From: Verrucomicrobia bacterium LW23
Lineage (GTDB): Bacteria; Verrucomicrobiota; Verrucomicrobiia; Methylacidiphilales; UBA1321
Direction: 5' to 3'
Assembly: GCA_003054695.1 (NCBI GenBank)
Contig: QAZA01000045.1
Location: forward strand, 372,001-436,000
Length of the DNA: 64,000 bases
Shown one piece after another: positions 10,603 to 52,376 of this stretch (the first letter of the stretch is position 1; each line of letters starts with the position of its first letter). The translations under genes and the position numbers were made by a program. The notes beneath the pieces were generated by a model that was not told the DNA's origin, did no database searches, and worked only from the letters and a program-made list of their open reading frames with translations.

Positions 10603-13029
10603 CTACTGTTTGCGCGAGTGCGACGACGACGTGGCACCGCGCGTCCTGGCGCTGCCTTTGCCTTGGGGCGCGCTGACGGGCTTTGCTGTGGGGATAGCGC
10701 CGGCGCGCGGAGGATCCAGCGGACGGGCGACCGGGACATCCGCGTTGAGGGGCGGGACGGGCGCCTCGTCCCTGGCGGCAACGCCGCGGCGGATGGGCGG
10801 GGCGTTGTCGATAAACAGGTTGTTGCGCTGCAGGATAACGCCTTGTGCGCGAACGAGATCCACCACGGCAATTTGCATGTCCGCAATCGCGCGCAGTTCC
10901 CGCAGGCGCGCCGCGGTAAGGTCCTGCTGCAATTGCAGGACGACAAAGCTGGTGCTGGCGCCTTCGTTCAGCTTCAGCTGCTCGTCGCGCAGCGTCTCCT
11001 CCGCCAGTTTGCGGGCCACGGCGGCGCTTACGATGCGCTGCTGGTTGCTGGCCGCGCGGCCGGCCGCATTATCTACCTCCACAATAATGTTTTGCTCCAG
11101 CCGCTTCAGTTCCATCAGCGTTTGCTGGCGGCTGGCGTTGCTGGCCATCAGGCGCCCGCGCGCCTCGCGGTTGCCCAGCGGTATCTCCACCGTCACGCCC
11201 ACCTGCCACTGCGGGTTGTCCGTCTGCGCAATGTTGCCTACGGAGGGGCCGTAGTGCCGCGAAAGCCCGCCGTACCCGTAGTCGGCGCGAAAATCAACCT
11301 GCGGGAGCATCCCGTTCTCGTCCTGCCGCACCTGAATGTTCGCGATCTCCGCCTGCTCCAGCCCGCGCTTCAGGTCCATGCGATTGCGCATGGCCAAGGT
11401 AATGCTGCGCTGCAACGGCACCGGCGTAAACGCGTCGGGCGGTATGTCCGTGGGGATGATGCGGAACTTGAGCCACGGCATGATGTCGTTGGTAATCAAG
11501 CGCTTCAGCACGTTCTCCTGGTCGCGGATGGAGCGTTGCACCCGGTAGAGTTCCTCGCGCCGCGCGGCCGCTTCGGCGCTGGCCTGGCTGATATCAATCG
11601 GCGACATCGTGCCGATCTCCACGCGGGCGGCGTTGTCGCGCAGCAGCTGCTCCGCCAGCTCCAGCGATTCGAGGCGGGTTTGCAAGTCGCGGCGGATGTA
11701 GATCAGCTCAAAATAGGCGGCGCACACGTCGCGCACCACCTGCTGCACCTGGTCGTAAAACGTGGCGTCGGCCACGCGCTGGTTGCGGCGCGCAATGCGC
11801 AGCGAGCCCAGGTTCACGTCCGTACCAAAGCCGCGCAGCAAAGGTTGCACCAGCGACAGGCCCGCATAGGAGTTAAAGGTATCATCGCGCTCGCTCGGCG
11901 CGGACTCTCCGCGGCCCGTGGTGGTGTTGGCGGTGACGGTGGCGCCGGTGGCGGTGCGCTGGGTCATCGCCACCTCATAGTTGTCGCGGCGCGAGGTGCT
12001 TTGGCGCTGTTCCTCGCCCGTTACGGTGGGCGCGAAAAAGGCGCTGGTGTCCTCGCCGTGCGTGTAGCTGGCGCTCAGGCGCGGGTCAAATGCGCCGCGC
12101 TCGGTCATCACATTGGCGCGCGCCACTTCGGGGTTCAGGCGCTCGATCCCGATGTCCAGGTTGCTGCGCAGCGCCAGCAAAATGCACTGGCGCAGCGACA
12201 GCGGCAGGGGCGTCCCCTCGTCGTCGCGCGGCGTGGGCGGGATGTTGATTTGCTCCGCGCTGGCACCCGGCGGCACGGCTACGGGACCCACGTTGCGCCC
12301 GGGCACGGAGCTGGGCGTAATGCCCGGCGAGGCGGGCGCGTTGGTGTCGGTAACCGCGGGTACGCTGGGCCGCCCCGGTTCGGGACGCATCTGAAGGTCC
12401 GCCGGGTTGGCGCCCGGCGTGTTGGTAGTACCAGGGTTAAGTAGCGCGGGCAGATTGGTGCCCGGCACGGTGTTGTAACCGGGCAATGGCGGCTGCGCGG
12501 AAGTGTTTGTGGCGCCGCGGTTTGTGGCGGGCGGTAACGGCGGCAATCCCACAGGCGGCGCCCCGGGAAGCATGCGGCGCGAGGCCTCCGAAGGCGGGCG
12601 CCGGCGGCGCGCGGACGGATCATGCGGTGCGACCGGGGTGCTCGCGGGGGCGGCGGTGGGGGATTCCTTCGCTGTTTCGCGCAGGGTGTCGGAGACATTG
12701 GGCGGCGCCTGCGGGCGGCCGGGGCGCGGGCGCTGGGTCTCGTCCGTAGCGCTCTCCCCGGCAGGTGCGGCCGGCGCGTTGGTGGCGGCTGTGTTGGTGG
12801 GCGAGACGGCGCGGACATCGGGCTCCGGGGCGGCCGGGCCGTTGGTGGAGGTCGGCGCGGCGTCCTCGGAGGCGCCGTCGGCCTGCATCTCCTCGGCGGC
12901 TTCCAGGCTCGCCGCTTCGGCGCGCGCTTCCGTTGGGTAAACGGCGGGGTGGGGCCCGTAGGCGGGTGCCGGGGTTTCGGCCCCCAGGGGGAGAATGGCG
13001 GCGCCGGCGATGGCCAGCACGGTAATCAT
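10603..13029 (-). CDS. TolC-family outer-membrane efflux protein with long Pro-rich N-terminal region
   Basis: The C-terminal 480 or so residues contain two outer-membrane efflux (OEP) repeats: a first beginning near LPLSLRQCILLALRSNLDI and a second near LKRGLEQAEIANIQVRQDE, each with the helical and strand pattern of TolC channels. I chose the ATG at 13029 (808 residues) because it gives a normal signal peptide, MITVLAIAGAAILPLGAETP. A GTG at 13170 would add 47 Arg-rich residues before it. Between signal and channel lie roughly 270 residues rich in Pro, Ala, Thr and Asn, unusual for TolC and probably disordered in the periplasm. It converges on the RND gene at 6237-9617, its likely partner. 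The C-terminal tail is also basic and low complexity. Confidence 0.9.
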   Translation of the reverse strand: MITVLAIAGAAILPLGAETPAPAYGPHPAVYPTEARAEAASLEAAEEMQADGASEDAAPTSTNGPAAPEPDVRAVSPTNTAATNAPAAPAGESATDETQRPRPGRPQAPPNVSDTLRETAKESPTAAPASTPVAPHDPSARRRRPPSEASRRMLPGAPPVGLPPLPPATNRGATNTSAQPPLPGYNTVPGTNLPALLNPGTTNTPGANPADLQMRPEPGRPSVPAVTDTNAPASPGITPSSVPGRNVGPVAVPPGASAEQINIPPTPRDDEGTPLPLSLRQCILLALRSNLDIGIERLNPEVARANVMTERGAFDPRLSASYTHGEDTSAFFAPTVTGEEQRQSTSRRDNYEVAMTQRTATGATVTANTTTGRGESAPSERDDTFNSYAGLSLVQPLLRGFGTDVNLGSLRIARRNQRVADATFYDQVQQVVRDVCAAYFELIYIRRDLQTRLESLELAEQLLRDNAARVEIGTMSPIDISQASAEAAARREELYRVQRSIRDQENVLKRLITNDIMPWLKFRIIPTDIPPDAFTPVPLQRSITLAMRNRMDLKRGLEQAEIANIQVRQDENGMLPQVDFRADYGYGGLSRHYGPSVGNIAQTDNPQWQVGVTVEIPLGNREARGRLMASNASRQQTLMELKRLEQNIIVEVDNAAGRAASNQQRIVSAAVARKLAEETLRDEQLKLNEGASTSFVVLQLQQDLTAARLRELRAIADMQIAVVDLVRAQGVILQRNNLFIDNAPPIRRGVAARDEAPVPPLNADVPVARPLDPPRAGAIPTAKPVSAPQGKGSARTRGATSSSHSRKQ

Positions 13030-13315
13030 GGAAATGCCGCCGCGCGCGCGAGTGGCTGTGTGCGACGTCCCGCTGCCTGCAGCCGTGCAGCGCGCAACGA
13101 GGCGCCTGGCACGGCCGCGGCCTTCTCGGCTTCCATGTAAATGGGCAAAAATCATCGTCTGTAAATGCACGGCTGATACGTCCCGCCGCCGGCCTGTCCA
13201 GCCTGAAACTGGTTTAACCCCTGTTTAGCCAAAAGTTGCGGCAAAGGCCAACAATCGATGCATTTAATATTCCGCCCCATTCAAGCGCTGCAGTGACAGA
13301 GCGTAACGCGGGGTT

Positions 13316-27508: not shown

Positions 27509-28558
27509 CTACGCGTGCTCCGCCCGCGCCAGGCGCTCGTTAATGGCCAGGCCAAGGCCGTGGGTGGGGAGGGCGGTGGCGATGATGCGGTCAATCGCCG
27601 GATCTTCGTCCAGCTGGCGCAGGGCGGAGAAGAAGCGCGTGGCGGCCTCGGCGAGGTTGCCGGAGGGGGAGAGATCAAGGACTCGGGCGAAGCTGCCAGC
27701 CCGGGCCTGTCCGCCGGGGATTAGCCCCGCAAAGGTCAGCAGCCCAACGCGTTCGGTGCTTTCATGGCTTTCCGGCGCCGTGGTGGCCGTTGTAGCTCCC
27801 ATCTCACACACGCGCAGTGGTTTACGCGGGGCGTAGTGGCTTTTCAGCTGGCCGGGGGCGAGGGGCGAGCTCTCGACGGCTTCGGGGCGGCGCAGGGGGC
27901 CGGTGATGGCCTCAATGGCCTCGCGCGGCAGGCCGCCGGCGCGCAGGAGAAGCGGCTCGCCTTCGTGCCAGCCTATAATGGTGCTTTCCAGCCCCACCTC
28001 GCACGGCCCGGCATCCAGCACCAGGGGCACGGCGCCGCCAAGCTCGGCGGCCACGGCGGCGGCGGTGGTGGGGCTGATGCGCCCGAAACGGTTGGCGCTG
28101 GGCGCGGCAATCGGCCCGCCAAAGCGCGCAATCACCTCGCGCATAACGGGATGCGCCGGGCAGCGCAGCGCGGCGGAAGGCAGCCCGCTTGTGGCCAGAT
28201 GCGGCACCGCGTCCCGCTTGGGCAGCACCAGGGTGAGCGGGCCGGGCCAGAAGGCGGCCGCCAGCCGGCGCGCATCGGCCGGCCAGTCGAGCGTCAGCGC
28301 TTCGGCCTCCGTAAGCCCCGTGACGTGCAGGATAAGCGGATCGAACCGCGGCCGCCCTTTTATCTCGAAGATTTGCGCCAGGGCGCTTTCGCGAAGGCCG
28401 TCGGCGCCCAGCCCGTACACCGTCTCGGTGGGCAGCGCCACGGCTTCCCCGGCGCGCAGCAACTCCACCGCAAGCGCCATGCCCCGGGCATCCGCGGGCT
28501 GGATGTTGGCGGGGCGATCGGGGCGCGAGACGGCGGCGGTTGGCGGCGTGGCTGTCAT
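27509..28558 (-). CDS. L-threonylcarbamoyladenylate synthase, Sua5 type
   Basis: 349 residues from the ATG at 28558; the frame is open 55 codons further but that part lacks family similarity. The YrdC domain (about 20-215) has AVALPTETVYGLGADGL and the SANRFGRISPTTA loop. A C-terminal Sua5 domain (about 250-349) makes it the two-domain Sua5 type rather than short TsaC. It condenses threonine, bicarbonate and ATP to threonylcarbamoyl-AMP for t6A37 modification of ANN-decoding tRNAs. It is divergent from the ion channel gene. Confidence 0.93.
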   Translation of the reverse strand: MTATPPTAAVSRPDRPANIQPADARGMALAVELLRAGEAVALPTETVYGLGADGLRESALAQIFEIKGRPRFDPLILHVTGLTEAEALTLDWPADARRLAAAFWPGPLTLVLPKRDAVPHLATSGLPSAALRCPAHPVMREVIARFGGPIAAPSANRFGRISPTTAAAVAAELGGAVPLVLDAGPCEVGLESTIIGWHEGEPLLLRAGGLPREAIEAITGPLRRPEAVESSPLAPGQLKSHYAPRKPLRVCEMGATTATTAPESHESTERVGLLTFAGLIPGGQARAGSFARVLDLSPSGNLAEAATRFFSALRQLDEDPAIDRIIATALPTHGLGLAINERLARAEHA

Positions 28559-28837
28559 GGAGGCGTTGGGGGGTGCGGGATGCAGGGGCAAGGTTGAAGT
28601 CGGGGAAAAAGCGCACGCAGCATAGCCGGGGCATGCGGAGAGCGCGAGCGAAACACGCGGCACAGGGGCAGGCGGGGCGGAGCCTCTGCGCCGGTGCGCC
28701 TTTATCTGTACCAGAAGTTTCACGGGCTAAAGATTATTCAATTGCGTACAGCCTAAAGTATGGCAACAAAGGAGGGCAGCTACCCGCGGGCCGACCATCG
28801 ACTGTGCGCCCGCGCCCGCCCTTTGTATACCGCCGCC

Positions 28838-30388
28838 ATGCACTTCCCCGCTCTTGCCTTTCTTCCTTCCCTCGCCGCCCGGCCGTATGCCGGGTTGCGG
28901 TGCGCGGCCGTGGTGCCGGCATGGCTGTGGCTGCTGGGGCTGCACGTGGCGTTGATGGCGTGCGTGGCGGTGACCGCAAAGGCGGAGATTCCATGCCTGC
29001 GCGCCCTGGCCGGCCCCGCGGCTGCCGGTTTGGCGCCGTTTACGGATGGCGCGCCCGTTCCGTCGCACTCTCCCGCCGCCACCAACAGTACTCCGGCGGT
29101 GCGGGCTATCGTCACCAACCTGGGCGGGCCATCGTCCGTACCGGCCGCCACTAACGCGCCCGCGGTCCAGAGCTCGCCGGGCCTGCTCTCCAGCCCTGCC
29201 GCGCCGGGCATTACGGCGCCGGCGCCGCGCAGCACCCGGCCGGTGTACCCGCCCGCGGACGACATGCAGAACGGCGGCGGGCTCCTCGGCACCACGTCCG
29301 ACTCCAGCACCGCGGACGCCGGCGCGGGCCCCGACGGCCATCACACGGGCAAAGGTTCCAGCATCCGGCTGCTCGATTCCTCGCCGCTCTCCAGCAAGGA
29401 CGCCGCGCCGGGCATTGCCGACGCCTCCGACCACGAGACCGGCCACGAGAAGCCGGTCGTCGTCAGCATAAGCCTGCGCGTGCTGAATTTTGAGCGCGTG
29501 GATACCAAAAACGGCACCTTCCGCTTTGCCGGCCAGCTGATTGCGGAGTGGGATCCCAGCAGCGTCCCGCCCAAACTGCGCGGTATCAGCCCCAGCGTGC
29601 AGCCGCCCTCGCGTGGCGCGCGGCTAATCCCGGGGCCGTGGAAGGGCTGGGAGCCATCGTTGATCATGATGAACATCCTCGCGGATGTGAACATGGGGCA
29701 TCCCGTGTACTTTTTGCTGAGTAACGGGCGTGTACGAGCGGAAGTCCGTTTTTCAGCGCCCAGTGTGGCATCGCGAATGGATTTTTGCCATTTCCCCTTC
29801 GACACGCAATTTCTGGTGCTGGAGATGGCGCCGGGCGGCGACAATCTGCTGCCGGTGCGGCTGGAGCCGTTGGAGAAGGAGTTTCGCGTGGACAAGGACG
29901 TGCGGCTTTCCGAGTGGCGCATCCAGGGCGCCAGCGCTTACTCCACCATGAGCAACCGCGTGCACTTTTGCGTGGAGGTGCGCCGCTACTGGGGCCACTA
30001 CGTCGGCAACATCTTCCTGCCCATGTTTATTATTGTGGCGGTAAGCTACGCCACCATGTGGGTGCCGCGCAATAACCTGCCCGGCGCGTGCAGCCTGGTT
30101 GGCATCACCATCGCCAGCCTGTTTTTGCTGAAGCTGACCGTGAGCCAGGAGCTGGCGCGCACCGATGGCCTTACGTTTCTGGACGCCATTGCCATCTTCC
30201 ACGTGGCGGCCGCGGCTACGGCGGCCACGCTTAACGTCGTCATTGCCCGCCTGTGGAGGGAGTTGCCGGATCCCCTGGACGAAGGCCCGGCGCGTATGCC
30301 GCGCATTGCTTTCCCCATCGCCTACTTTGCGGGCTGGGTGCTGATTGCCATTTACTACTTTATGTGGCTGGACCACGTGCACGGGTAG
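28838..30388 (+). CDS. Bacterial pentameric ligand-gated ion channel homologue (Cys-loop superfamily)
   Basis: 516 residues from the ATG at 28838. After a hydrophobic signal-like segment (about 25-48) comes a stretch of some 150 residues rich in Pro, Ala, Ser and Thr. From about 205 a beta-sandwich ligand-binding domain begins (VVVSISLRVLNFERVDTKNG, with a WDPS strand typical of loop D). The signature Pro-loop reads DFCHFPFDTQF near 315, with no flanking cysteine pair, as in prokaryotic members such as GLIC and ELIC. Four membrane helices follow: M1 about 388-409, M2 416-442 (pore-lining), M3 446-473, a short basic/acidic linker, and M4 490-511 ending almost at the C-terminus. The ligand and ion selectivity cannot be read. 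The long disordered N-terminal extension is unusual for this family. Confidence 0.82.
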   Translation: MHFPALAFLPSLAARPYAGLRCAAVVPAWLWLLGLHVALMACVAVTAKAEIPCLRALAGPAAAGLAPFTDGAPVPSHSPAATNSTPAVRAIVTNLGGPSSVPAATNAPAVQSSPGLLSSPAAPGITAPAPRSTRPVYPPADDMQNGGGLLGTTSDSSTADAGAGPDGHHTGKGSSIRLLDSSPLSSKDAAPGIADASDHETGHEKPVVVSISLRVLNFERVDTKNGTFRFAGQLIAEWDPSSVPPKLRGISPSVQPPSRGARLIPGPWKGWEPSLIMMNILADVNMGHPVYFLLSNGRVRAEVRFSAPSVASRMDFCHFPFDTQFLVLEMAPGGDNLLPVRLEPLEKEFRVDKDVRLSEWRIQGASAYSTMSNRVHFCVEVRRYWGHYVGNIFLPMFIIVAVSYATMWVPRNNLPGACSLVGITIASLFLLKLTVSQELARTDGLTFLDAIAIFHVAAAATAATLNVVIARLWRELPDPLDEGPARMPRIAFPIAYFAGWVLIAIYYFMWLDHVHG

Positions 30389-30424: not shown

Positions 30425-31270
30425 TCAAAAATCCATAATGCTCTTCTTGAGCGTCGCGGGGGCTTTGGTCTCCCCGGTTGTCTCGGCGCCGGTGCCGCCG
30501 GGGCGGTAGCTGATGGCCATGGTGGCTTTGCCGCTGGTTTCCAGCGATCTTTTCAGCCCGCTGTACGCTTTGATGAACCCCTCCAGCGTGCCGCCCACGG
30601 GGTTGCCGCCCAGCTTCGTGATCACGTCCCCCGCCTTGATGCCCAGCCCGGCGGCGCGGCTCTGCTTCTCCACGGAGATGACCCGCACGGCGCCGTCGAT
30701 CTCCCCGAGAAACATCCCTTCGGGGAAGTCGAAGTGCACGTCCATCAGGTCCACCGGGTCCGTCTTGAGGTACACCAGCCGTAAATCTGACGCGCGTAGG
30801 TTGGCAAACGCCAGCTGAAAGCGGCGGTAATCCGCCCATTTGGTCTCCTGCACCATCTTTTTGGTGGCCGCCTGCTGCGGCGTAAGCTTGGGGCCGGAGT
30901 CGGGGCGCATGTTGCGCGTCAACACGGCATCCTTGTTGCCCGTGTGGCGCGCGCGGTTCACCTCCGCGTCGTCGGCCCGCAGCGGCACATAGGCCAGGCG
31001 CAGCTGGTCGCCCGGGCGGATGATATAGCGCTGGGTGACAAGTACGGGAAACTTCACCGTTACGGTGTCGCCCCGCGTCTCAAAGGGGAAACTGAGCGCG
31101 ATGTGCGGCTCCATATCGTACGTTTGCGCCCGCGCCGCCGAGGCCGATGCGCCAAGGATGGCAAGCACCACCCCAAGGACAAGCGCGACGGCGAGGGTCC
31201 GGACGCCGGCTGCCCCGGGATGCGGGCGAGGGAGTGTGGTGAGGCGACGGAGCGGAAAGAGGTGTTGCAT
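30425..31270 (-). CDS. Secreted PDZ-domain protein
   Basis: 281 residues from the ATG at 31270, which precedes a signal peptide (LAVALVLGVVLAILGASASAA, cut near ARAQ). The middle part is mixed alpha/beta without a family I recognise. A PDZ domain lies at about 190-260: GMFLGEIDGAVRVISVEKQS and IKAGDVITKLGGNPV match the carboxylate-binding loop and following helix. No protease domain is attached, so it is not a DegP-type enzyme. It probably acts in the periplasm as a binding or scaffolding protein. It converges with the ion channel gene. Confidence 0.8.
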   Translation of the reverse strand: MQHLFPLRRLTTLPRPHPGAAGVRTLAVALVLGVVLAILGASASAARAQTYDMEPHIALSFPFETRGDTVTVKFPVLVTQRYIIRPGDQLRLAYVPLRADDAEVNRARHTGNKDAVLTRNMRPDSGPKLTPQQAATKKMVQETKWADYRRFQLAFANLRASDLRLVYLKTDPVDLMDVHFDFPEGMFLGEIDGAVRVISVEKQSRAAGLGIKAGDVITKLGGNPVGGTLEGFIKAYSGLKRSLETSGKATMAISYRPGGTGAETTGETKAPATLKKSIMDF

Positions 31271-31436
31271 AAGCAAATGGCGTAAAGGGAAGGGGGGAGG
31301 GTGTCTCGGCGGCGGCTTTGCGTTGCAGTGCGACCTGAGAGAACGCGAGCGGGGCAAGGGAATTGTCCCACATCAGGGCGAGCTTTCCAGCAAATCTTTG
31401 CGCACCGGCGGGGGGGTGTTTGGGGGAGTGCGCGTT

Positions 31437-31525: not shown

Positions 31526-34500
31526 ATGTTGTTCAGCAGGTTTTTGTTATTCAAATGCGGAAAAACAATCCCCCATTCCAGGGGATCGGCCTTCCGTTGC
31601 CTGCTCGTCGGTATCCTCGCCGCCGCCTTTGTCGCCAGCGACGCCGCCGCACGGCTCCCTTCCGCAGAGCCCGCCCCGCCGCCCTCCGGCAACGGCAAGC
31701 CCTCACGGCAGAGCTCACGCCTCGAATCCGACAACGACTGGAACGCCGAGACGGAGCAAAAGCCCTCCCCCCTGCCCAGCCGTGGCGCCCGCCCCGCGCC
31801 CGCGCCCGCCGCGGCGCCAACCGCCCCGGCCTCCGCTGAGGCCGCCAAGAGGCCGGAGACGGAATCCAGGCCCGCCGCAAACACAAGCACTTCTACCAAA
31901 ACCGCTTCCGCAGAGCCTTCGGCAAAGCCCGCCGCCGAGAAGCCGGCCGCTGAGGAGGCACCGAAACTCTCCGCTACCGCCGCCACCCCTCCCGCAAAGC
32001 CCCTCGCCGAGAAGCCGACCGAGAAGCGCACGGCCTCAGCAACTCGCTCGGGCAACGCATCTCGCCGCAACGCCTCGGCTTCCGGCCCGCAAAACCGCAC
32101 AGCCGGCCGCAATAAGGAGGAAGTCCGCCCCGCGGAGATCCCACGCCCAATTGAGAATCCGCGCCCGCTCGACTCCGACACTCGCATCATCCCGCTGAGC
32201 GAGGAGCCGCGCCAGCCGGCGGCGCCACACTTTGCCGCGCTGGGCACCTCCAAAGTCGGCAAGCTGCCGCACAAACACGTGGCTCCGCCGGCCGATCCCT
32301 CGCGCAAGGAGCCTGGCAAAACCACGATTGCCGAGGCGATTCTGCCGACCGGCGCGGGCATGCCCAAAGGCATCGGCGAGACGCAACGCCCCGGCCCTCT
32401 TCCGCCCCTGCGCGGCCACTCGGCGGAAGCGCCCACGGGTTCCCACTCCCGCACCGAGACGGCCACCGCAAGCGCCACGCCCAGCCGCAAGGCCACGGCC
32501 GCCACCCCCGCGCCCGCGCCTACCGTCGACAACTCCGCGCCCATCCCGATGCCGCCGCTGACCGGCAACCCGGCCACGCGCGTGCTGGCGCCCCTGCCCC
32601 TGGTGCCGGTTCCCGAGCCCGCGTACAACGTGGAAATGCCTGAGCTTGTGGATGATGTGCCGCCGCCAACCGACCGGGACCCCACCATGGAGCCTCGGCA
32701 AAAGCACGTGCTGGCCCGCAACCTGCAGGCGCTGCGCACCATGCGCATGGTCGATCCCGCGAAGATGAAGCAGGTCTGCCGCGCCAAAATCGCCTCCGCC
32801 GCCACCCCCGCGTCGCTCAAGCTGCTCTATGCGTCCATGCTCACCCTCACGGGCGATCCCTCCGGCCGCGACTTCCTGCGCGTCTCTCTCACCAACGTCA
32901 ACGGCCCGCAGCTGGCGGATACCATGTGGATGCTGCAGTACCTGGCGCTGGAGAGCGACACGCTGAAAGGCGGCCAGCGCCCCGATCTTGCCTGGGCGGA
33001 AGACCTTCTCATTGCAGCACTTAAGGACAAACGCAACGTCCAGACTTCCCGCATCTTCCCCCAGCCCGCCGGCCCGCGCTCCGCCGGTCCGCCCCTCGTC
33101 GCGCCCATGCCGGCCACCGTACAGGTGCGCGAGCTTGCCGTGATGACCGGCCGCTTTCAGGAGATTCTCTCCGCCGCCCGCTCGCGCCGCCTGCCCGGAG
33201 TGCTTGTGGACTGGGCGAAGGAAAGCCCGCCGCCTTCGGATCTCTCCCCCTTCCTGCTCACCCTGGGCCGCTACGATTATGACACCAAGGCGGAAGCCCT
33301 TGTGCTGGAACGCGTTGCCGCGTACGGCAAAGATTTTGGCGCCGCCGCCGCAGCCGCCGTCAGCATGGAGCTGAAGGACGCCGTGCCGCACCTGATGAAG
33401 CACGCTGCCGACCCGCGTGCGCAGGCGGCGCTGGCACGCCTTGGCGATCTGCGTATCGTCAAGGACCTGAAGCACTTGCTACCCAAACTGCCGCGCGGGC
33501 AGCAGCCCGCCATGGAGATGCTCATCATTCGCCTGAGCACGCACGATCCCCTGCCCGCCATGCTGGACTACGTGGAGGACACAAAAAATCCCGCGCGCGC
33601 CCAGGCGCTGGATTACCTCGACACCGTCAGCGATCCGCGCGCCATCGAACTCGCGAAGTTCCTGATGGAGCACGATCCCCTGCCCGACGCGCGGCTGGCC
33701 GGCATCCGCTGCCTGGTGCGCATTGCCCGCACCGGCAATCGCGACGCGCTGCAAGCGCTGATGGCCGGCCTTTCCGTGCCGTTCGATCGCTTGGCGCAAA
33801 CGCCGACCGAGAAGGCGCTGGCCAACGCCAGCTTCCGTGGAGAGATTCTGGAGAGCCTGCGCGGACTGACGCGGCAGGGCTTTGGGATGGATCAGCAGGC
33901 CTGGTACGCGTGGTTCCGCGAAGGCGATGCCGCGATTGCCGCGGGCACGTCAACGGCTACGGAGATTGCCCAGAGCAGCACGCCTGGAACGCCCGGCCAG
34001 TTTGGCCCGCCCGCGCCTGGCGCCGGTCACCCGGAGTCCGACCCGCTGCCGCAGGGTGAAACGCTGCCTATGGCCGGCGATGAAGCCGTGGCCACTTACG
34101 TGGCGCCCGATGGCACGCCTGGCGACGACGAGAATTTGCCCACCCACGACGCACCCGGTCCCGTGGAGCCGCCGACTCCGGCCAGCCTGGTGCCCACGCG
34201 CAAGGATCGCTTTGCGCCCGCCTGGCCCCTGGCCTTCAGCCCCTCCGGCGGCGAAGGCGGCGTGGATGCGTTTGGCCTTAACGAGAGCGGCACCGGCCCC
34301 GGCGGCAGCGGCAACGCGCCCCACGCGGGCGCCGGCCGCGACATGCCCGCCTGGACCATGCGCCTGAGCGTTGACGGCAAGGATGGCGAGAGCGGAACCG
34401 GTAAGGTTCAGGGCCCGCCCGTGCCGGAGGAGCTTACCCGGCCGACCACGTTTATGGTAGCCAGCGCGCAGGACATGGTGTCCGGCCCGCCCACGCCCGG

Positions 34501-36229
34501 CAGCTTTTACGCGCGCGTGTTTGCAAAGGATAACCCCTACACGCAGGGCGGCCTCGCCTCTCTGGTTAACGGCCAGGGCCCGGCGGGGGGCAACGCCACC
34601 GCGGACGGCAATGGTGGCGCAGACCGCCCGCTGGTGCCCTCCGGCTCGGTGCCGGATATCCGCATCGTTGCGTCGTACACGCCGGCGGAGGATCCCGATG
34701 CCTGGAAGGGTCATGCCTCCCGCAACGCCCGGCGATCGCTGGACGCCGTCTTGCGTCCACCCCGGCAGCTGGCTGCGGCTTTCCGCGATGACGAGGACTC
34801 GCAGAAGCAGGGCCCGCCGCTGCCCATACCCCGCCCCGTGCCGCTGCCTGGCCAGCCTGGCTTTGCACCGCTGTCCGTTGCCTCCGCCGAGACGAAGGCG
34901 GCGGAAACGCCGGGCATGGAACCCGGGCCGGTGCCCAGCCTTGCCACACTGCCCAAAGCGCCGCCCCCTCCCGCGGGAGGCATGGATGAGGCGCACCCGG
35001 AAGCGGAGAACGCTTCGCACGGTCCTGTGCCGTCCCTCGGCCACCTGAGCAAGGCGACGACGCCGTATGAGCCCGCCACGGACGCCCCCTTGCCCGCGAG
35101 CCGTCCCACCGACGTGGCGCACGTGGAGGTCGCGGTGGATCCGCTGGCCCAGATTATGGAGGCCCCGCCCGAGCCAAAGCCGGCGGCCGTCGACAAGGCA
35201 CCCGAAGCGCCCCATCCCCCCGCCGTTGCGCCCGCGCCCGCGATCGCCTCGCAATCGCCCGTGCCTGCACCCGCGCCTGGCACTGTGCCGACGCCCGAAG
35301 CCGTGCCGGATCGCCAGAAGATGCTCGACGCCCTGGCTGAGGCAAAGGCCGAAGCGGAGAAGGAGCGGATTGCCTCCACCACCCCTGCGCAGCCCTCCGG
35401 CCCCGACGGCAAGCCGCTGCAACCCAACAGCATCGAGGCGATGCTTGCCGCCGATTACTCCAAAGCGCCGGAGCCCAATACGCAGCTTGCGGACATGCTT
35501 GCCGAAGCCGGCACGCCGATTCTTGCCGCGCCCAATCGCGCCCTTCTTCAGCGCAAGGCGGCGGAGACGTTGGCGCTGCAACAGGGCCCCGGCGGCGTGC
35601 GCCTTCCGATCGGCTCGGGCGGCACGTTGCTGAACATCCGCGACGAGTACGCGGTGACGGAGACGCACACGCCCGAGGCAGCCGCCCCGTCGCCGAGCCG
35701 CGGCGAGCTTCCTCGCACAGACGCTGTGTCGCTGATCCTCGCGGCGTTTAATCTGAAGCAGGCACCCGGCCCGGAGACGGCGTCCGTTCCTGCCAACGCG
35801 CCCTCGGCCACCATGCTGGCGGACGCCGGCACGCCGATGATTTCGCCCAGCCTGCGCAATCTGCCTCGCGGCGATGGCAACGGCGGTGCGCCTGTCGTCG
35901 CCGGATTGCCGTCCCGCGCCGGCTCCTCGCCGTCCTCCCGCGCCGCTACGGCGGAGCCTGCAGCCGCGCCCGGCGGGCTGTGGAAGGCGGGAGAAGGGAC
36001 GACGCTGACGCGTATGTTTACGGAGCTGGTTCTGAAACCGCACTCCGACCGCCCGTCCGCATCGACTCCCGCCATGCCGTCTGCAGCGCCCGGATCGCCC
36101 GGCCCGGCGGTTTCCGCGCAGACATCCCCTGCCTCCGCGCCTGCGCCGGCACCCGTGGCTGTGCCAACCGCGGCACCGCTGATGCAGCTGCTGAACGATG
36201 TGGGCACGCCCGCGCCGGCAGCGGGCTAG
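31526..36229 (+). CDS. 1567-residue Pro/Ala-rich protein with HEAT-like core
   Basis: A signal-like N-terminus (RCLLVGILAAAFVASDAAA) suggests export. Residues about 40-390 and 830-1567 are low complexity, dominated by Pro, Ala, Gly and acidic residues. The middle (about 395-790) is helical with short repeated helix pairs such as RAQALDYLDTVSDPRAIELA, resembling HEAT/armadillo repeats. Near the C-terminus a motif of the form (L/M)L-x-(D/E)-(A/V)-GTP recurs at about 1323, 1430 and 1556, and the phrase GPVPSL recurs at two further places. I do not recognise the family. It may be a periplasmic or surface scaffold; this is inference. Its base composition matches its neighbours. Confidence 0.75.
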   Translation: MLFSRFLLFKCGKTIPHSRGSAFRCLLVGILAAAFVASDAAARLPSAEPAPPPSGNGKPSRQSSRLESDNDWNAETEQKPSPLPSRGARPAPAPAAAPTAPASAEAAKRPETESRPAANTSTSTKTASAEPSAKPAAEKPAAEEAPKLSATAATPPAKPLAEKPTEKRTASATRSGNASRRNASASGPQNRTAGRNKEEVRPAEIPRPIENPRPLDSDTRIIPLSEEPRQPAAPHFAALGTSKVGKLPHKHVAPPADPSRKEPGKTTIAEAILPTGAGMPKGIGETQRPGPLPPLRGHSAEAPTGSHSRTETATASATPSRKATAATPAPAPTVDNSAPIPMPPLTGNPATRVLAPLPLVPVPEPAYNVEMPELVDDVPPPTDRDPTMEPRQKHVLARNLQALRTMRMVDPAKMKQVCRAKIASAATPASLKLLYASMLTLTGDPSGRDFLRVSLTNVNGPQLADTMWMLQYLALESDTLKGGQRPDLAWAEDLLIAALKDKRNVQTSRIFPQPAGPRSAGPPLVAPMPATVQVRELAVMTGRFQEILSAARSRRLPGVLVDWAKESPPPSDLSPFLLTLGRYDYDTKAEALVLERVAAYGKDFGAAAAAAVSMELKDAVPHLMKHAADPRAQAALARLGDLRIVKDLKHLLPKLPRGQQPAMEMLIIRLSTHDPLPAMLDYVEDTKNPARAQALDYLDTVSDPRAIELAKFLMEHDPLPDARLAGIRCLVRIARTGNRDALQALMAGLSVPFDRLAQTPTEKALANASFRGEILESLRGLTRQGFGMDQQAWYAWFREGDAAIAAGTSTATEIAQSSTPGTPGQFGPPAPGAGHPESDPLPQGETLPMAGDEAVATYVAPDGTPGDDENLPTHDAPGPVEPPTPASLVPTRKDRFAPAWPLAFSPSGGEGGVDAFGLNESGTGPGGSGNAPHAGAGRDMPAWTMRLSVDGKDGESGTGKVQGPPVPEELTRPTTFMVASAQDMVSGPPTPGSFYARVFAKDNPYTQGGLASLVNGQGPAGGNATADGNGGADRPLVPSGSVPDIRIVASYTPAEDPDAWKGHASRNARRSLDAVLRPPRQLAAAFRDDEDSQKQGPPLPIPRPVPLPGQPGFAPLSVASAETKAAETPGMEPGPVPSLATLPKAPPPPAGGMDEAHPEAENASHGPVPSLGHLSKATTPYEPATDAPLPASRPTDVAHVEVAVDPLAQIMEAPPEPKPAAVDKAPEAPHPPAVAPAPAIASQSPVPAPAPGTVPTPEAVPDRQKMLDALAEAKAEAEKERIASTTPAQPSGPDGKPLQPNSIEAMLAADYSKAPEPNTQLADMLAEAGTPILAAPNRALLQRKAAETLALQQGPGGVRLPIGSGGTLLNIRDEYAVTETHTPEAAAPSPSRGELPRTDAVSLILAAFNLKQAPGPETASVPANAPSATMLADAGTPMISPSLRNLPRGDGNGGAPVVAGLPSRAGSSPSSRAATAEPAAAPGGLWKAGEGTTLTRMFTELVLKPHSDRPSASTPAMPSAAPGSPGPAVSAQTSPASAPAPAPVAVPTAAPLMQLLNDVGTPAPAAG

Positions 36230-51212: not shown

Positions 51213-52376
51213 ATGAGTCCCGCCAAGAGCAAACCGGCAGCACCTACCGCCACCAAGCCCAGCCGGAAAGCTCCCGCCATCTCTGCCGCCTCGATGAACC
51301 CCGCAGGCAAGGCGCCCAGGAAGGGCTCCGCAAAGAGCCAGCCGGCCAAGCCCGCGCCTGCCGCAAAATCCAGGGAAAAGGCTAAGGCAACACCTCAGGC
51401 CGGGGCAACTCCCTCCCGTAAGCCAACGGCAAAGCCTGCCTCAGAGTCATCAGCAGCCGCCGCCCCTGCACCCACGCCCCAATCCAAGGCAAGCAAGCCC
51501 GCTCGCAAGCTCTCCGCAGCGGCCATCGCGGCCGCGCTTGTCCCCACATCCGCTGCCCCCGCCCCCACTACGCCGCCTCCGGCAGAGTCCATGCTCTGGA
51601 TCCCGTCCCCTTCCCTCGGCGCGGAGCGCGGCTACTGCCTTTCCGCCGTCCTTCACGCGCCGGTCGTCGCCGGTGTGGCAACGAATGCGAAGAAGACTGC
51701 CCGCCCCCTCGTCATCCTCTCCCACGGCTACACGGGCAGCAAGCAGGAGTCCGGCCGCCTCTTCGTCACCACCGCGCGTGCCCTGGCACGCAAGGGCTTA
51801 AGCGCGTTGCGCTTCGACTTTATGGGCTCCGGCGACAGCCACGGCGAGTTCTATGAGATGTCGCCCAACACGGAGATCGCCGACCTGAAGGCGGTCATCG
51901 CCTGGGCGCAGGAGCAGGGCTACGGCCCCATCGGCCTGCTCGGGCTCAGTTTCGGCGGCGCCGTCAGCATCTGCACCACCGCGCAGGTGGAGGCCGCCCG
52001 CCCCGGCACCATCCGCGCGCTGGCCACCTGGTCCAGCGTCCCCAGCTTCAACTTCTGGCGCAAGCAGCCCGACGCCGGCCAGCCGCTCCCCGCCCCCCAC
52101 ACCAACGGCCTGCAGGTTGGCCCGCAGTTCTTTATGGACCGTCCCGCGATGGACGTACCCGCCAGCTACAAAAGCCTGCGCCTGCCGCGCCTGCAGATCC
52201 AGGGGGACAAGGATATCCCCGGCTTTCTCGAAGGCTTTACCGCCTACTTCAAGCAGGCCAAAGGCCCCAAAAAGCACACAGTCATCCCCGGTGCCGACCA
52301 CGTCTTCACCACCTGGCCGCACCGCGTCAAAGTCATCGAAGACACGGCGGCGTGGCTGGCCGAGCAGCTTGCCTAA
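51213..52376 (+). CDS. Alpha/beta hydrolase with Lys/Ala/Pro-rich N-terminus
   Basis: 387 residues. Residues about 1-115 are a basic Lys/Ala/Pro/Ser-rich stretch, probably disordered. The rest is an alpha/beta hydrolase: LVILSHGYTGSKQESGR (oxyanion hole region), LRFDFMGSGDSHGE, nucleophile elbow GLSFGGAV near 247, and candidate Asp (QGDKDIP) and His (GADHVF). No signal peptide, so probably cytoplasmic. Substrate unknown; related serine hydrolases cleave esters. Its last codons overlap the end of the convergent oxidoreductase gene by four bases. Confidence 0.85.
   Translation: MSPAKSKPAAPTATKPSRKAPAISAASMNPAGKAPRKGSAKSQPAKPAPAAKSREKAKATPQAGATPSRKPTAKPASESSAAAAPAPTPQSKASKPARKLSAAAIAAALVPTSAAPAPTTPPPAESMLWIPSPSLGAERGYCLSAVLHAPVVAGVATNAKKTARPLVILSHGYTGSKQESGRLFVTTARALARKGLSALRFDFMGSGDSHGEFYEMSPNTEIADLKAVIAWAQEQGYGPIGLLGLSFGGAVSICTTAQVEAARPGTIRALATWSSVPSFNFWRKQPDAGQPLPAPHTNGLQVGPQFFMDRPAMDVPASYKSLRLPRLQIQGDKDIPGFLEGFTAYFKQAKGPKKHTVIPGADHVFTTWPHRVKVIEDTAAWLAEQLA

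Follow-up and report, generated by a model that had tools for sequence, protein, structure and literature searches.

A strongly divergent bacterial pentameric ligand-gated ion channel with an unusual pore and a short loop C in Verrucomicrobia bacterium LW23

The genome of Verrucomicrobia bacterium LW23 (6.6 Mb) encodes a protein that sequence and model comparisons identify as a genuine but very divergent bacterial relative of the animal neurotransmitter-gated channels. The protein (P0001; its channel part, residues 202-516, is denoted P0002) is an orphan-like, strongly divergent pentameric ligand-gated ion channel (pLGIC), new within a known superfamily, and its interest lies in the pore and in loop C. 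The gene lies in a stretch of 64,000 nucleotides from contig QAZA01000045.1 that was analysed as a whole (the window; Table 1). We suggest that P0001 is probably a working pLGIC with a displaced gate, a retained coupling core and a linker extension at its N-terminus. Most work on pLGIC gating relies on mutants of a small number of model channels, in which position 9' of the pore helix is the key gate position. A natural channel that has neither the gate residue at 9' nor a charged filter nor the proline between M2 and M3, but in which the core is kept, would be a natural experiment on the requirements of gating.

The gene and its fold

The channel part of P0001 is recognized at the level of both sequence and structure. 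Among PDB sequences, phmmer matched an ELIC/GLIC chimera (E 3.8e-19 over residues 206-508) as well as ELIC (E about 1e-16, residues 203-508, 26-27% identity), and all matches were confined to residues 202-515. The NCBIfam models TIGR00860 and NF033918 also match P0001 (E about 1e-10), although with scores well below their cut-offs. Matches to two Pfam families had been proposed as a check. PF02931 was found at E 7e-5, but its 22.8 bits fall short of the cut-off of 26, and PF02932 gave no match to P0001 at E<=1. This shortfall reflects the detection limit of the two profiles and is outweighed by the phmmer and Foldseek matches. The AlphaFold model, a monomer of full-length P0001 made with 20 relatives, reaches a pLDDT of mostly 75-96 over residues 204-516 and about 90 in the channel. 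Compared with GLIC, the model gave E 4e-24 and a target TM-score of 0.74-0.79 in Foldseek, and a Z of 25.4 over 293 aligned residues in VIA. Both matches span residues 202-508 and cover a beta-sandwich followed by four membrane helices.

The sequence-only reading of the gene as a bacterial pLGIC is thereby borne out by the phmmer matches to ELIC and GLIC together with AlphaFold, Foldseek and VIA. The Pro-loop DFCHFPFDTQF, the beta-sandwich and the four helices it described were all found in the translated reading frame and the model. The metazoan Cys-loop hallmark of two Cys bracketing the Pro-loop was not found, as the sole Cys317 lies inside the loop and has no partner at Cys-loop spacing. 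The start of the gene is putative, and an alternative in-frame ATG upstream at 28760 would give a protein of 542 aa.

Table 1. Features of the channel gene and of other genes in the window (positions counted from the first nucleotide of the window)
Feature	Residues	Position	Strand	Basis or remark
TolC-like outer-membrane factor		10603-13155	-	
Sua5		27509-28723	-	upstream of channel gene, divergent
Gene of the pLGIC subunit	516 aa plus stop	28838-30388	+	ORF, phmmer, AlphaFold, Foldseek
Hydrophobic signal segment with AKA↓E signal-peptidase-like site and lipobox-like LMAC	20-49	28895-28984	+	sequence; one helix (19-48) in model
Lipobox-like LMAC	39-42	28952-28963	+	in signal segment
Pro/Ala/Ser/Thr/Gly-rich extension, predicted disordered	50-203	28985-29446	+	pLDDT, composition, codon-position G+C
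Ligand-binding beta-sandwich domain	204-384	29447-29989	+	sub-threshold PF02931, phmmer to ELIC, model
Pro-loop DFCHFPFDTQF, without flanking Cys pair	315-325	29780-29812	+	translation, alignment
beta9 - loop C - beta10	360-383	29915-29986	+	alignment
Transmembrane helix M1, conserved kink proline P395	385-408	29990-30061	+	model, alignment
Pore helix M2: P-2' G-1' A0' S2' I6' A9' L13' L16' Q20'	411-438	30068-30151	+	model, alignment
Transmembrane helix M3	447-475	30176-30262	+	model
Transmembrane helix M4, with P493	483-515	30284-30382	+	model
PDZ protein		30425-31357	-	downstream of channel gene, convergent
1567-aa protein, weak HEAT match		31526-36229	+	
alpha/beta hydrolase		51213-52376	+	

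Pore, loop C and the retained coupling core

The pore of P0001 deviates from those of its relatives at several positions. The protein was aligned with 56 relatives (57 sequences in total), and the stretch from M1 to M3 is free of gaps compared with the commonest class of relatives, so that the register of the pore is firm. Position 9' is Ala in P0001 alone, the relatives having Leu (52), Ile (2) or Phe (2). At 13', P0001 has Leu where 55 relatives have Ala; the exception is a relative of the same order, with Phe. The residue at 0' is Ala in place of Arg (37 relatives), Gln (13), Asn (4), Met (1) or Leu (1), and the filter region from -2' to 0' (P-2', G-1', A0') is uncharged. The M2-M3 proline (23') is likewise replaced by Ala in P0001 alone, with Pro in 55 relatives and a gap in one. 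A survey of 561 sequences found Leu or Phe at 9' in 88%, a basic residue (R/K) at 0' in 79% and the M2-M3 Pro in 88% (PMC4795631). These are majority rather than defining traits of the superfamily, and P0001 has Ala at all three positions. Each single deviation thus has a precedent given the survey frequencies, and the combination was seen in none of the 56 relatives aligned.

Loop C of P0001 is the shortest of the 57 sequences, with 22 residues between Trp360 and Arg383 compared with 24-38 in the others (24 in the next-shortest, then 26; 38 in ELIC). The sequence-only reading had overlooked both the odd residues of the pore and the brevity of loop C.

The residues of the coupling core are retained. 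The FPFD of the Pro-loop occupies residues 319-322, with P and D invariant across the 57 aligned sequences, and the Pro-loop proline is 100% conserved in the superfamily survey (PMC4795631 Table 1). P0001 keeps the universally or nearly universally conserved P320, D322, R383 (pre-M1) and P395 (M1 kink), as well as the Trp of beta9 (W360). In an Ala scan of GLIC, 14 of 18 prolines tolerated the replacement, and Ala at Pro-119, Pro-203 or Pro-299 abolished current (PMC4813548). P0001 retains the equivalents of these three, with P493 in M4 taken as the counterpart of Pro-299, and is without only the M2-M3 proline. A structure of GLIC P246A has been solved (5heh).

Since the prolines essential in GLIC are retained, the best inference is that the channel works and that its gate has shifted upwards by one turn. 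The gene would then encode one subunit of a putative homopentameric inner-membrane pLGIC, with residues 204-516 predicted to form a canonical subunit of beta-sandwich and four helices. A ligand or another periplasmic signal might open the pore through the retained core of Pro-loop FPxD, pre-M1 Arg, M1 Pro and M4 Pro. The hydrophobic gate would lie one helical turn above its usual place, with Leu13' and Leu16' taking the role of 9'. With no ring of charges at the mouth of the pore, selectivity among ions would be expected to be weak or non-classical. Loop C appears too short for the usual capping of the orthosteric site, which suggests a small ion, pH or a non-classical site as possible triggers. 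In GLIC, 9' acts as the hydrophobic gate, polar substitutions there favour opening, and I233T is a gain-of-function variant (PMC8635979). GLIC I9'A variants have been deposited as open-stabilised channels, according to the titles of the structures matched. The most specific form of the proposal, a natural pLGIC combining a gate moved from 9' to 13'/16' with an uncharged filter, almost no loop C and a non-classical trigger, is possible, if rather doubtful, and would be a natural counterpart of such engineered 9'A open-state mutants.

The same substitutions could also mark a leaky or silent channel that has lost gating or conduction. A decaying or electrically silent pLGIC might still assemble, with relaxed constraint explaining the loss of the gate, filter and M2-M3 residues. 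Such decay would be consistent with the joint change of several strongly conserved positions, the very long branch of P0001 and the absence of an ortholog from the 11 other genomes of the family. However, the reading frame is unbroken and its G+C by codon position is normal. P0001 also keeps every universally conserved coupling residue and the prolines at which GLIC does not tolerate Ala. A large hydrophobic residue has furthermore appeared at 13' exactly where 9' lost one, which is unexpected from random decay. We consider a silent channel unlikely for these reasons.

The N-terminal extension

P0001 carries a long extension between its signal segment and the ligand-binding domain. The roughly 150 extra residues rich in Pro, Ala, Ser and Thr (PAST) that had been claimed are present at residues 50-203 and consist of 52% PAST (64% with Gly) compared with 27% PAST in the channel part. 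The AlphaFold pLDDT drops to 32-48 in the extension, and residues 62-203 are modelled as disordered. Third-position G+C ranges from 0.78 to 0.97, which is equal to or above the rest of the gene and marks the extension as coding. A comparable leader was found in none of the 55 pLGIC relatives collected. Two of the relatives (L021 and L025) have open frames running far upstream, with a signal-like segment just before the ligand-binding domain, and the upstream part is thus probably untranslated.

The extension is not the only stretch of this kind in the window. The TolC-like outer-membrane factor has about 250 PAST-type residues between its signal segment and the OEP domains, and the wording 'AATNAPA' is common to this leader and the channel extension. 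The alpha/beta hydrolase begins with a PAST-rich leader, and the 1567-aa protein contains a long PAST-rich stretch. PAST-rich disordered leaders are apparently a style of this genome. Given these similar stretches and the predicted disorder, the extension is best read as a lineage-typical disordered linker, not as a new domain. The signal segment would export the N-terminus and leave about 154 disordered residues hanging in the periplasm, as a flexible leader of the type that this genome puts on several proteins rather than as a sensor domain. The description of the extension as unusual stands with regard to its absence from the 55 relatives, but a disordered stretch with the same composition as the TolC-like leader appears ordinary in this genome.

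The extension might instead be functional and anchor the channel, perhaps through a lipid on Cys42, to the cell wall or the outer membrane, coupling it to the state of the envelope. The lipobox-like LMAC in the signal segment, the 154 flexible residues, which could span the periplasm, and the uniqueness of the extension to P0001 among the pLGICs collected would all fit such a role. Yet LMAC, downstream of a putative start, is a weak lipobox (Met at -2) and is followed within a few residues by an AKA↓E site that is just as good, and similar leaders are found on other proteins of the window, making a tether very unlikely. Translation could also start downstream so that the extension is not made, in line with the lack of a Shine-Dalgarno-like sequence directly before the ATG at 28838. 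The sole signal-like segment lies upstream of the extension, however, and the third-position G+C of the extension is the strongest in the gene (0.88-0.97). A downstream start is scarcely credible as a result.

Relatives and genomic setting

P0001 sits on a very long branch of 2.9-3.0 changes per site, hence comparisons at single sites are coarse, given how distant the relatives are. The tree places it with a DeCLIC-like clade at 83/54 (unsupported), inside a set of 25 rows at 95/93. Tree tests neither supported nor rejected the DeCLIC-like grouping, and the sister group of P0001 is left unclaimed because long branches are involved. Groupings with the other pLGIC of the order (L086; AU p 0.01) and, weakly, with a second pLGIC of the same genome (L001; AU p 0.04) were rejected, with long branches in both cases.

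The closest known systems differ from P0001 in the pore and loop C. ELIC is the best sequence match in phmmer and has the same domain order, but carries L9', A13', F16', an acidic filter residue and the M2-M3 proline, and its loop C is 16 residues longer. The best structural match is GLIC, the proton-gated channel of Gloeobacter, which has E-2', I9', A13' and the M2-M3 proline where P0001 has P-2', A9', L13' and A23'. DeCLIC and three Rhodospirillales proteins (L033, L035 and L037) resemble P0001 in two respects: additional residues precede the ligand-binding domain, and loop C is rather short (26). The N-terminal region of DeCLIC consists of two folded jelly-roll lobes (PMC9897478). In contrast, the extension of P0001 matches nothing and is predicted to be disordered, and a folded double jelly-roll domain was not found in it. 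The three Rhodospirillales proteins, all from MAGs, contain a folded N-terminal region of the DeCLIC type, roughly 290 aa long, and the match of L035 to DeCLIC (E 1e-92) extends over its full length. The verrucomicrobial pLGICs (L005, L006, L007, L013 and others) belong to the same superfamily and class as P0001 with 22-26% identity. They differ by having only short leaders, a pore with D-1', R0', L9', A13' and P23', and a loop C that is 11 residues longer. Another family of the same order (L086, L087 and L088; family f4) has a further divergent type of pLGIC, in which 13' is Phe and a Lys lies deep within M2 (LLSAIFLQKSYSD).

The channel gene had been described as sitting alone among housekeeping genes, which is right for the locus with its divergent Sua5 and convergent PDZ neighbors. 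A promoter scan upstream of the channel gene revealed no plus-strand site. No pLGIC was detectable in the 11 other genomes of the family, and the distribution in the class is patchy, with 18 of 383 other genomes matching P0002 at E<=1e-5. A scan of the whole collection of GTDB species genomes found no close relatives of P0001, and no relatives were found in a plasmid search or in a viral-contig scan with a three-row alignment. Broader alignments offered no block of sufficient conservation for a pattern search. In those genomes of the family in which Sua5 and the PDZ gene could both be located, they are on separate contigs, so that synteny cannot tell an insertion of the channel gene from its loss. 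Characterised prokaryotic members are indeed few, as had been stated, but in genomes they are widespread though patchy (PMC4795631). At the time of the same survey, prokaryotic pLGICs had no known biological role (PMC4795631), and P0001 alone supplies none. The second pLGIC of the genome (L001) is distinct and has 364 aa. Its gene overlaps by 4 bases the end of the preceding gene, which encodes a 423-aa protein with a dCache_3 sensor domain, and the two (L001:122-2484; G000:C10:408114-410476) likely form an operon of the Cache-pLGIC type. Cache domains fused to pLGICs or in predicted operons with them were described in 2004 (PMC549065), hence the pair represents an already known type.
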